From a virus, in IMG/VR virus record IMGVR_UViG_3300032431_000007, positions 1 through 64,000 of that record: a stretch of 64,000 nt of DNA; one strand, written 5' to 3'. This document shows positions 4,972 to 64,000 of this stretch, piece by piece (the stretch's first letter is position 1; each line of letters opens with the position of its first letter). The notes under the pieces were generated by a model. It saw only the letters and a list, made by a program, of their open reading frames with translations. It made no database searches and was not told where the DNA came from. The position numbers were made by a program, and so were the translations under genes.

Positions 4972-5286
4972 ATGTCACACTTTTCGTTCGCCCAAGCTAT
5001 CACAAGGAAACTACAGGTGATCTCAGATCAAGAGCTAAAAGCTACTACACTTACTGATCTTGAAATTGTGCATCAGTATCGAGGATCAACAGACCCGGCA
5101 GTTTTGCAACTAAGCAACCGACTCGTCAAGAATCATTATGAGACGGAACTGTTGCGCGATGAAGCGGAAGACGCCGCTGGTTTTCAACGGCGTATTAACC
5201 AACTTGAACACGAGTTAAATAAAGAAGAAACGGAGCACGTCGCAACCAAGAAAGAGTTAGAATCCTATAGGAGGGTTTACGGATGA
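4972..5286 (+). CDS. Hypothetical coiled-coil protein
   Basis: The ATG at 4972 starts one base after the previous stop; 104 residues. The second half is charged and heptad-like (RRINQLEHELNKEETEHV), so a coiled coil is likely. No enzymatic motif is visible. The stop overlaps the start of the next small gene. Confidence 0.6.
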   Translation: MSHFSFAQAITRKLQVISDQELKATTLTDLEIVHQYRGSTDPAVLQLSNRLVKNHYETELLRDEAEDAAGFQRRINQLEHELNKEETEHVATKKELESYRRVYG

Positions 5287-5354
5287 AAGATGTTGTTGTA
5301 ATAGTTCTGTGCGCGGTGATCTTACTTTTACTCGGCCAATGTCTAATACCCTGA
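5283..5354 (+). CDS. Tiny membrane peptide, 23 aa
   Basis: A very strong ribosome binding site (AGGAGGGTTTACGG) precedes this ATG, and the start overlaps the previous stop by ATGA. The product is almost a single hydrophobic helix (VVVIVLCAVILLLLGQC) with short ends. Its size and signals suggest a translated single-span microprotein. Function unknown. Confidence 0.5.
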   Translation: MKDVVVIVLCAVILLLLGQCLIP

Positions 5355-5382
5355 AATCGCCAGCTACAGAAGGAAACTATAG

Positions 5383-5883
5383 ATGCCTATCACCGACGAG
5401 CAACTTAGAGCAGAGTGCGCGGCAGGGGCTTCCCGCCCACAGATTGCGGTTAAGTACGGGGTGTCTGTTCAGACAATCTACGGCAGGGGCAGAAAACTAG
5501 GTCTAAAGTTCGTCTCTTATTGGACAACGGCGGAAGGCCGCGCGCGAAGAGGTGTACTGACTAAAGCACTCTTTGCTGACCCCGAAGAAAAGATTATACG
5601 GATGGCGCAACTAACAGCGGGGAAAATGAAACCCGGGAAAAAAGCTGCGGCCAAAGACAGGTATGAGAAAGAGAAAAATAAGTATCTCAAGTTGCTGTCA
5701 CCTATTGAGATGAAAGATTACCTCAACTTACATAAGATGGGGATGAGCAACTCAAACGCGTTTATTATGATGGCTCGACCGGACGTTGCCAAAGTCTGGG
5801 AATCGACACGACGCGGAAAACTAGAGGTTAAAAAAGCGGCTGAGCGTTTGGATAAAAAAAGCCAGCCCCGAGAGGCTGGCTAA
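5383..5883 (+). CDS. Putative helix-turn-helix regulator
   Basis: The 166-residue basic protein has an N-terminal helix-turn-helix of the resolvase/sigma-region type (AAGASRPQIAVKYGVSVQTIYGR, about residues 13-35), followed by Lys-rich helices. It probably binds DNA. It is the last rightward gene before the late module. Its final codons overlap the stem-loop of the leftward terminator at 5854-5880, so the two converging operons end almost on each other. Confidence 0.6.
   Translation: MPITDEQLRAECAAGASRPQIAVKYGVSVQTIYGRGRKLGLKFVSYWTTAEGRARRGVLTKALFADPEEKIIRMAQLTAGKMKPGKKAAAKDRYEKEKNKYLKLLSPIEMKDYLNLHKMGMSNSNAFIMMARPDVAKVWESTRRGKLEVKKAAERLDKKSQPREAG
5854..5880 (-). terminator. Intrinsic terminator of the leftward late operon
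   Basis: On the minus strand a GCCAGCC/GGCTGGC stem with a six-base loop is followed by seven U residues. It sits 29 bp past the endolysin stop. It overlaps the 3' end of the converging rightward gene, where the stem alone (without a U run) could also slow transcription. Confidence 0.85.
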
Positions 5884-5908
5884 GTCGCCTGACGCAGGAA
5901 GGAACCCG

Positions 5909-6646
5909 TCAGGATTCGTTTGTGCTGACAGTTCCGCCTGTCATCTGAACGCGCCGACCGCTCGGCACAAATCCATAGCGCGCGTCTGGCCACCGGGAGC
6001 CGTTTTTGCGCAGGCGCTTCTTTGACAGTGGCGCGATGCTCACCATGTTGTTCTGGTTGCCGCCAAGTACGTAGAAGTTATCTTCGGACTCCCCAGCGTA
6101 GAAGCCAACATGGCCCTTCCAGCTGTCCGGCGACCCGCGCCAGAAGGACAGAATACAACCGCGCTGCGGAGCGACGTGCTGCCCCCAAGATGACCAATTC
6201 GCGGCCAGATATGGGTTGCTTGGAACCACGATATCAGGGATGGTCCTGCGAAGAGAAGTCTCTGCGTAATCTCCGCACCAAGCAATATCCGAAGGATCGC
6301 CGATTGTCCTTCCGTCCGACCTAAGCCAAAGAGAAAGCTCGCGGTTGTCGCGAATCTCGTGCTTTCCCATCATCTGCAATCCGAAGACATACCAAGGCAT
6401 GTCTTCCGAAGCGTTGGGCAGGATACTGCCCAACGGGCGACTGTCCCCGACTAGAAGCGCCCAAGTCAGCGGCCCGATACTCAACGAGTTGGACAGACCA
6501 ACCGATTGCTTGAAGTTGACCAGAGCGTGATTGGTGTTCATCCCGCGGAGGCCGTCAATGACGAGCGGTTTCCCGTTTGCGCCAAAGTAACCGCGACGAT
6601 TAAGAGCGTCCTGCACGACCTTAATATCATAGATCATTGTCATCAT
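5909..6646 (-). CDS. Endolysin: peptidoglycan-binding domain plus TIGR02594-type CHAP amidase
   Basis: This enzyme should degrade host peptidoglycan at lysis. The N-terminal 60 residues form a PGB_1-type wall-binding repeat (VVQDALNRRGYFG...IDGLRG...FKQSVGL). The C-terminal domain matches the TIGR02594 NlpC/P60-CHAP family: WCGDY with the nucleophile Cys, RGCILSFWRGS, GHVGFY with the catalytic His, and VLGGNQNNMVSI. There is no signal peptide, so it needs a holin. The start is chosen among ATGs at 6646, 6643 and 6637, all near the end of the holin-like gene; longer versions would overlap that gene fully. It is the last gene of the late operon. Confidence 0.9.
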   Translation of the reverse strand: MMTMIYDIKVVQDALNRRGYFGANGKPLVIDGLRGMNTNHALVNFKQSVGLSNSLSIGPLTWALLVGDSRPLGSILPNASEDMPWYVFGLQMMGKHEIRDNRELSLWLRSDGRTIGDPSDIAWCGDYAETSLRRTIPDIVVPSNPYLAANWSSWGQHVAPQRGCILSFWRGSPDSWKGHVGFYAGESEDNFYVLGGNQNNMVSIAPLSKKRLRKNGSRWPDARYGFVPSGRRVQMTGGTVSTNES

Positions 6647-62282: not shown

Positions 62283-63008
62283 ATGTTGAATACACAACCT
62301 ATCGCGAAGCCAGCTTCTGGCGACGGAAGACAGCTTGTCGTCCATTCTATATTCCACACAATCCAAGGTGAGGGGCCGTTCTGCGGCAGACCCGCCGTCT
62401 TCGTGCGCCTGTCGGATTGCAACCTGACTTGTCCACTCTGCGATACGGAATACACTTCCATCCGCATGACAATGACGCCGGTTGAAATCTTCAAGATCAT
62501 CTCCCGAACCTTTATACAGGACGGTGGCCTAGTCGTGCTGACTGGCGGCGAGCCGTTCCGACAGCCCGTTGGGATGCTTCTGCGGGCGTTGACCTCGGAG
62601 GGGTTTGCCGTCCAGATCGAGACGAACGGAACGCTGCCCCCGCAAGACTTCATCTACGAGCGCGATCTTATGGGAAGCCCGATGCCGGGGTGCGCTTACA
62701 TCGTGTGCAGCCCGAAGACCGGCAAGATAAATCCTGAAACCTTGATGCAGACTTGCGCGCTTAAGTATGTCGCCCGTGCGGATGACCTTGAGGAAGATGA
62801 CGGGCTTCCCCGGACGGCGCTCGGACATAGCGCCCATCCCAGACTTGCGCGGCCTCCGTTGTTTTGGCGGCGTCCGGTATACCTCCAGCCTGCCGATGAG
62901 CAGGACGAGGTTAAGAACCGCGCTAACCGTCTGGCAGTTGCCAAATCCTGTATGCAGTTCGGCTACACGATCCAACTACAGACCCACAAACTCCTAGAAC
63001 TTGAATAA
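62283..63008 (+). CDS. queE: 7-carboxy-7-deazaguanine synthase, radical SAM
   Basis: QueE converts 6-carboxytetrahydropterin to 7-carboxy-7-deazaguanine. The 241-residue protein has SIFHTIQGEGPFCGRPAVFVRLSDCNLTCPLCDTEY with the CX3CX2C cluster (C46, C50, C53) for the 4Fe-4S cluster, and VVLTGGEPF and VQIETNGT for SAM and substrate binding. The F-x-IQGEGxxxG substrate loop is intact. It is followed by queC 12 bases later, so a phage preQ0 operon is clear. Confidence 0.93.
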   Translation: MLNTQPIAKPASGDGRQLVVHSIFHTIQGEGPFCGRPAVFVRLSDCNLTCPLCDTEYTSIRMTMTPVEIFKIISRTFIQDGGLVVLTGGEPFRQPVGMLLRALTSEGFAVQIETNGTLPPQDFIYERDLMGSPMPGCAYIVCSPKTGKINPETLMQTCALKYVARADDLEEDDGLPRTALGHSAHPRLARPPLFWRRPVYLQPADEQDEVKNRANRLAVAKSCMQFGYTIQLQTHKLLELE

Positions 63009-63020
63009 CGAGGGCAACCA

Positions 63021-63785
63021 ATGGCGGCGAGAAATAATGACGCTTGCGTAGTCGTGCTATCCGGCGGGCAAGACTCGACAACGTGCCTATTCTGGGCAAA
63101 AGAATTCTACAGCGAGGTCCATGCGGTCACGTTCGACTATGGGCAGCGCCATTCGATCGAGATTGACGCCGCGTTCATCGTCGGTCAAATGGCGGGCGTT
63201 GCATCGCATAAGCTGATAAAGCTCGGTAACATTTTGGAGGGGACAAGCCCGTTGGTTAGCGATGCTCCGCTGGAGCAGTACGCGGATCACCAGTCCCTTC
63301 CCGGCGGTCTTGAAAAGACCTTCGTCCCGATGCGCAATCAGTTGTTCCTTACGGTGGCCGCGAACCGCGCCTACTGTCTTGGAATATCAAATCTGGTGAC
63401 AGGCGTCTGCCAAGAAGACAGCGGCGGTTATCCAGATTGTCGGCGGGACTTTATCGAATCGCTGGAAAAGACCAGTCGCATGGGAACATTTACCGGCGAG
63501 GACGAAACACTTCCCTATCTCTACATTATCACGCCGCTGATGTATCTGACAAAAGCCCAAAGCGTTCACATGGCGTTTGCGAACCCAAGGTGCTGGGAGG
63601 CGCTGGCCTATACGCACACCTCCTACGATGGAAAGTATCCGCCGACCGGCCACGATCATGCAACGCTTCTAAGGGCTAAGGGCTTTGAAGAAGCAGGTCG
63701 GCCTGATCCGCTTGTTCTGCGCGCTTGGCGCCAAGGCGTGATGGACCTCCCGGGAACGGCTAACTATGCGGGGTGCGCGCTTTGA
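63021..63785 (+). CDS. queC: 7-cyano-7-deazaguanine synthase, zinc cysteines replaced
   Basis: QueC makes preQ0 from CDG with ATP and ammonia. The 254-residue protein has the PP-loop VVLSGGQDSTTCLFWA (14-20), DYGQRHSIEID and NLVTGVCQEDSGGYPDCR, all as in the family. The C-terminal zinc site is changed: at positions that hold C188, C197, C200 and C203 in E. coli QueC are S201, T209, D212 and T215 (context TSYDGKYPPTGHDHATLLRAKGF). The rest of the domain aligns well, so this is not decay. The product could be preQ0 made without zinc or an altered base. Confidence 0.9.
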   Translation: MAARNNDACVVVLSGGQDSTTCLFWAKEFYSEVHAVTFDYGQRHSIEIDAAFIVGQMAGVASHKLIKLGNILEGTSPLVSDAPLEQYADHQSLPGGLEKTFVPMRNQLFLTVAANRAYCLGISNLVTGVCQEDSGGYPDCRRDFIESLEKTSRMGTFTGEDETLPYLYIITPLMYLTKAQSVHMAFANPRCWEALAYTHTSYDGKYPPTGHDHATLLRAKGFEEAGRPDPLVLRAWRQGVMDLPGTANYAGCAL

Positions 63786-64000
63786 CTTATGTTTCCAGCA
63801 AGACATTCGGCCACGACCTCGGGCTGTCGTGCTGTTTTCGGCAGTGGCGAGCCGATAGTCATTGCCGAATGCTTCACGGCTATGCGCTGGCTATCCATCT
63901 TGAGTTCGAAGCTGACACCCTAGACGACAAGAATTGGGTGGTTGACTTTGGTTCGATGAGAAGCTTAAAGGATATGTTTGGACAGCTTTTCGATCATACA
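63782..64000 (+). CDS. queD: 6-carboxytetrahydropterin synthase-like protein, 3' truncated by window
   Basis: The gene begins with TTG at 63782, overlapping the queC stop (TTGA), and runs past the window edge. The visible 73 residues match the phage QueD-like group: SSKTFGHDLGLSCCFRQWRADSHCRMLHGYAL, then NWVVDFGSMRSLKDMFGQLFDHT. The catalytic Cys in the SHC segment and the DH pair are kept. Two of the three usual zinc His positions read Phe (SCCF for AAH) and Tyr (HGY for HGH). Completes queE-queC-queD. Confidence 0.8.
   Translation, partial: MTYVSSKTFGHDLGLSCCFRQWRADSHCRMLHGYALAIHLEFEADTLDDKNWVVDFGSMRSLKDMFGQLFDHT

Follow-up and report, generated by a model that had tools for sequence, protein, structure and literature searches.

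Does a QueC that has lost all four cysteines of its structural zinc site still make preQ0? The question is raised by a queC-type gene without zinc cysteines (63021..63785, + strand; 254 aa, ATG start, TGA stop) in a window of 64,000 nucleotides of viral DNA, which is part of a 65,505-base record. The gene is preceded by queE (62283..63008, + strand; phrog_2076, 2e-54), which encodes a radical SAM protein of the CDG synthase type with CxxxCxxC at CNLTCPLC and a GGEP motif, and is followed by queD (63773..64000, + strand; phrog_2389, 7e-41), which extends past the window end to 64234 of the record and has a variant zinc site (FRQWRADSHCRMLHGY). Beyond the window, folE and a truncated dpdA-like gene were found (phrog_887, 7e-53; 198 aa), the latter running off the record end at 65505, so that all five genes are present in the order queE-queC-queD-folE-dpdA. 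The surrounding genes encode a terminase, a portal protein, a major head protein, a tail sheath protein and a DNA polymerase. The phage deazaguanine operon proposed in the initial annotation was therefore recovered, with the five pathway genes beside phage structural genes.

The zinc site of QueD is altered in this operon too. Among the 101 QueD proteins compared, 62 carried FRQxRAxSHCxxLHGY-like motifs, which lack two of the three zinc histidines of canonical QueD (His to Phe/Tyr, and HGH to HGY), with Gln27, His33 and Trp58 newly invariant and the catalytic Cys, DH and Glu retained. The window QueD (L002:3774-4235) scored 39.7 bits, below the QueD equivalog cut-off of 89.25. Elsewhere, annotated nucleoside deoxyribosyltransferases were observed near Cys-less queC genes in Edwardsiella phage ZHS (L023, 8338-8748) and Aminobacter phage Erebus (L030, 6295-6681), where another route to deazaguanine nucleotides is possible.

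The window protein scored 163.2 bits against the NCBIfam QueC equivalog TIGR00364 (cut-off 150.3) and 167.9 bits against the Pfam profile PF06508 (cut-off 22), and its AF2 model (pLDDT 93.3) gave the QueC structures 2pg3 and 3bl5 as the best PDB matches. The SGGxDS phosphate loop was found as SGGQDS at residues 14-19 (63060..63077, + strand), and the whole motif was invariant in alignment A2. The other reference motifs and residues of QueC, namely YxQxHxxE, VPxRN, YPDC and K165/Y189 (PMC13329287), were located at Y40-E47, V102-N106, Y137-C140, K178 and Y202, respectively. Y202, which corresponds to the essential E. coli residue Y189 (PMC13329287), is the Tyr directly after the first zinc Cys position. 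The amidotransferase fusion of Gat-QueC, which serves dG+ synthesis, was absent from the 254-aa protein, whose PP-loop is at residue 14 and which has no second Pfam domain. The Gat-QueC of phage 9g, although active, did not bring back Q in tRNA of E. coli delta-queC (PMC6884629).

In the alignment to relatives, the four zinc Cys positions are occupied by Ser201 (tcc, 63621-63623), Thr209 (acc, 63645-63647), Asp212 (gat, 63654-63656) and Thr215 (acg, 63663-63665), a gap-free one-for-one substitution. For the position-by-position comparison, zinc-keeping relatives of equal loop length were used as references, such as those of Desulfovibrio (L120, THTCYAGVFPPCGKCHSCVLR) and Zixibacteria (L108, THTCYKGEYPPCGHCHACLLR), against the window loop THTSYDGKYPPTGHDHATLLR; in place of the zinc knuckle, the loop reads S201-Y-D203-G-K-Y-P-P-T209-G-H-D212-H213-A-T215 (63621..63665, + strand). 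Alignment to the solved QueC structures 2PG3 and 3BL5 gave the same four assignments. The reading of Ser, Thr, Asp and Thr in an otherwise well-aligned segment, made initially from the window alone, was thus confirmed by both the zinc-type relatives and the solved structures. The C(x)8CxxCxxC zinc-binding motif was absent from the window protein, and no Cys occurred at the four positions across a set of 113 sequences. The window protein is accordingly filed as a zinc-site-free QueC variant and not as a canonical QueC: it agrees with QueC in profile, fold and catalytic motifs and lacks the zinc hallmark.

A homologue alignment with compensating cysteines would have spoken against a zinc-free enzyme, and the alignment made here revealed none among the most conserved cysteines of the Cys-less set (22, 130, 140 and 191). 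Cys 22, 130 and 140 are also present in canonical QueC (2PG3, 3BL5), and Cys191, at 87%, is not invariant, and compensating cysteines were therefore rejected. A pseudogene, decay or a sequencing error was rejected as well, on the basis of the 113 concordant sequences and a dN/dS of ~0.07 between the window queC and its nearest homologues (L003, L004). This value indicates purifying selection, in line with the earlier proposal that selection has kept the gene.

Relatives were taken from IMG/VR contigs, isolate phages (Ares being sampled as a relative of phage Rosebush) and GTDB genomes, yielding a 181-sequence alignment. Of these sequences, 113 were without Cys at all four positions, 67 had all four Cys and one had three; because sampling centred on the window protein, the Cys-less share is not representative of QueC at large. 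No intermediates with one or two zinc Cys occurred among the 181 aligned sequences. What had appeared to be a peculiarity of one phage is thus found clade-wide, in 113 sequences including bacterial ones. The three-Cys sequence is the second QueC paralogue of Vibrio phage vB_VcorM_GR7B (L019), in which two adjacent QueC-like genes were observed (5001-5807 and 5887-6591), one near the window type with zinc Cys and one a distant paralogue. Each catalytic residue checked was kept in all 113 Cys-less sequences (S14, G16 and D18; Y40, Q42, H44 and E47; P103, R105 and N106; Y137, D139 and C140; K178; Y202; R218), and these residues include those shown or proposed to be essential in E. coli QueC (PMC13329287).

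Two further features mark the Cys-less class. The C-terminal tail, D229-P230 to P244...Y249 in the window protein (63705..63767, + strand; AF2 pLDDT about 94-97), carries a P-x3..5-Y motif that was present in 113/113 Cys-less sequences versus 0/68 of the zinc type. The loop itself is also conserved: His213 was present in 113/113 and His199 in 112/113, position 203 held Asp in 108 of the 113 and Cys in another 4, and exactly one Asp stood at 210/212 in 108/113, with two Asp in none. Cys203 occurs as SYCG in the marine bacterial QueC proteins L113, L114, L116, L117 and L264, a ligand-competent swap that hints at a possible metal role. The strongest rival to a zinc-free loop braced by the tail builds on the same residues. 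In that rival, Cys4 has been replaced by a different metal site of H199, D203 (or Cys203), H213 and perhaps Asp 210/212, and the enzyme would still be metal-dependent. The near-invariance of both histidines, the restriction of position 203 largely to two metal-ligand letters and the single Asp at 210/212 are what such a site would call for. However, H199 is also present in 60/68 zinc-type QueC proteins and so probably has another role, L137 has Ala at position 203, and phage Iggy QueC has no Asp at 210/212. We therefore regard a His/Asp metal site as rather unlikely.

The class is also found in bacteria, where it is the sole full-length QueC in 12 genomes, that of the cultured Brackiella oedipodis and 11 small marine genomes carrying the labels Dadabacteria, Hydrogenedens, TMED58 or unnamed bacterium. 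As 11 of the 12 are MAGs or single-cell genomes, "only QueC" may there reflect incompleteness; the pattern repeats in those 11 and holds in the one cultured isolate. QueA, TGT, QueF, QueD and a QueE-like protein were found in 12/12, the QueA frame being in pieces in G016. In L118, queE lies directly 3' of the Cys-less queC, among housekeeping genes. QueF reduces preQ0, and a Cys-less QueC should therefore deliver preQ0 in bacteria that have QueF.

The relatives of Brackiella kept the zinc Cys in 24/24 QueC motifs read. In the marine clade, QueC was Cys-less in 14/14 genomes, whereas more distant relatives kept the zinc site in 16/16 read. In Brackiella oedipodis, a betaproteobacterium, the phage-like Cys-less queC (L103, 5974-6810) lies apart from the other que genes. 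In a tree with rough bootstrap values, computed after removal of the zinc loop and tail, the Brackiella QueC groups among phage proteins, which suggests that the gene was acquired from a phage. In Sinorhizobium psoraleae (L107/G006), a Cys-less QueC was observed in a folE/queD/queE/QueF-type cluster that looks like a prophage, and the genome has a second full-length QueC.

On the same tree, whose bootstrap had not settled, the Cys-less trait shows at least three changes of state, and zinc-type QueC proteins of Desulfovibrio and some cyanobacteria fall inside Cys-less groups. A single origin of the trait was rejected on this basis. The changes may go back to independent loss of the zinc site, to its regain or to swaps of the C-terminal part; identity by region favoured none of these, and the loop-tail covariation signals follow subgroups and are uninformative.

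Among phages, the Cys-less class fills a clade that includes Iggy, and a QueF-type gene was located close to the Cys-less queC in 20/80 IMG/VR viral loci and 3/13 phage isolate loci. Stenotrophomonas phage Bhz54 is another isolate with this class. P. aeruginosa, the host of Iggy, has a QueC of its own. Iggy DNA is reported as dPreQ0-modified (PMC11008142); the phage enzyme is a putative source of this modification, to which host preQ0 may contribute. The QueC of MMDA13, called "a canonical QueC protein" in PMC7472734, was likewise found without the four Cys.

The initial annotation had also allowed that the loss of the zinc site changes the product. In this case the enzyme would stop at ADG, or leave CDG, and the phage DNA would bear an ADG or CDG base. 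ADG is a known QueC intermediate (PMC13329287), and dADG is present in some phages (PMC6884629, PMC8306585). However, the QueC of Campylobacter phage CPt10, which is listed as dADG-modified (PMC8306585), keeps all four zinc Cys, and loss of the zinc site is thus no marker of ADG production. An ADG-specific enzyme was rejected on these grounds. The QueF-type genes near the Cys-less queC of many phages, its standing as the single full-length QueC of bacteria that have QueF, TGT and QueA, and the dPreQ0 reported for Iggy (PMC11008142) also speak against a stop at ADG, which we consider very unlikely.

A last alternative holds that this QueC homologue has lost its catalytic activity or taken on another task, such as protein deazaguanylation in the manner of Cap9 or QatC, while the phage draws on host preQ0. 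Repurposed QueC homologues do exist in Cap9 and QatC (PMC13329287, PMC13279940), and preQ0 is made by many hosts. However, the canonical motifs are all kept in the Cys-less set and lost in QatC, the zinc site is retained in Cap9 and QatC, and the gene is embedded in queE-queC-queD-folE-dpdA, with housekeeping use of the class in bacteria. No neighbours of the Cap9 or QatC defence systems (CD-NTase; QatA, QatB, QatD) were found, the neighbours being queE, queD, folE and the dpdA-like gene. Such a loss or change of function appears extremely improbable.

Taken together, the window protein is likely a zinc-site-free QueC that converts CDG to preQ0 for putative insertion by DpdA, with its loop presumably held by polar residues and the tail. 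In the proposed mechanism, QueE-made 7-carboxy-7-deazaguanine, ATP and ammonia would be turned into preQ0 through the normal two steps, CDG to ADG to preQ0, and the phage DpdA-like transglycosylase would then place preQ0 in phage DNA in exchange for guanine. In place of the zinc staple of ordinary QueC, redesigned polar residues (D203, H213 and a single Asp at 210 or 212) and the conserved C-terminal tail would hold this loop. According to PMC13279940, the conserved QueC-like fold of QatC, a relative of QueC, is completed by its zinc site, a structural role. The perfect association of the tail with the Cys-less trait supports the idea that loop and tail could take over the job of zinc, presumably by packing together. 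For the window phage, preQ0 as the product, its insertion by DpdA and the structural part played by loop and tail are inferred. Of the two outcomes considered at the outset, a zinc-free QueC that makes preQ0 is therefore favoured by the 12 genomes in which the class is the sole full-length QueC beside QueD, QueE, QueF, TGT and QueA, by the nearby QueF-type genes in phages and by the dPreQ0 reported for Iggy; an altered product is disfavoured by CPt10.

The zinc motif is one of two QueC hallmarks in a 2026 family-wide study (PMC13329287), and no prior description of a Cys-less QueC class was found in the open-access literature searched. Because a large, conserved Cys-less family exists and provides the sole full-length QueC found in some bacteria, QueC can probably do without the zinc site that has long counted as its hallmark. 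A wider proposal, which we hold to be doubtful, is that a widespread class swapped Cys4 for a His/Asp staple or metal site together with a diagnostic tail and displaced the zinc-type QueC in some bacteria, and that, with QueD short of two zinc histidines in many of the same phage operons, the preQ0 pathway of these phages may have become less zinc-dependent. If the Cys-less class indeed acts as the only QueC in some bacteria, Cys4 zinc would be unnecessary for the chemistry, and the class would offer a natural comparison for the role of the zinc site. Annotation pipelines would be warned against calling a Cys-less queC broken, and the product in a large phage group would become predictable as preQ0 or its QueF and QueF-L derivatives.

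Compared with known systems, the Cys-less class shares the PP-loop, YxQxHxxE, VPxRN, YxDC, the Lys and the Tyr in the zinc loop with canonical QueC (E. coli, B. subtilis 3BL5 and Pectobacterium 2PG3), and the window protein has the fold and the operon with queE, queD and folE in common with it. Unlike canonical QueC, the class has no C(x)nCxxCxxC and has a conserved C-terminal tail, an invariant H213 and Asp/Cys203. Cap9 of type IV CBASS and QatC share the QueC fold and PP-loop with the window protein but differ in their defence context, protein substrate and retained zinc Cys. The QueC of Vibrio phage GR7B (L019), which matches 95% of the window protein at 47% identity, keeps the four Cys. 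The Queuovirinae phages CAjan (dPreQ0) and 9g (Gat-QueC, dG+) have the same pathway genes in a similar order around dpdA and DNA polymerase genes; their QueC proteins keep the four Cys, whereas that of Iggy, in the same subfamily, is Cys-less.
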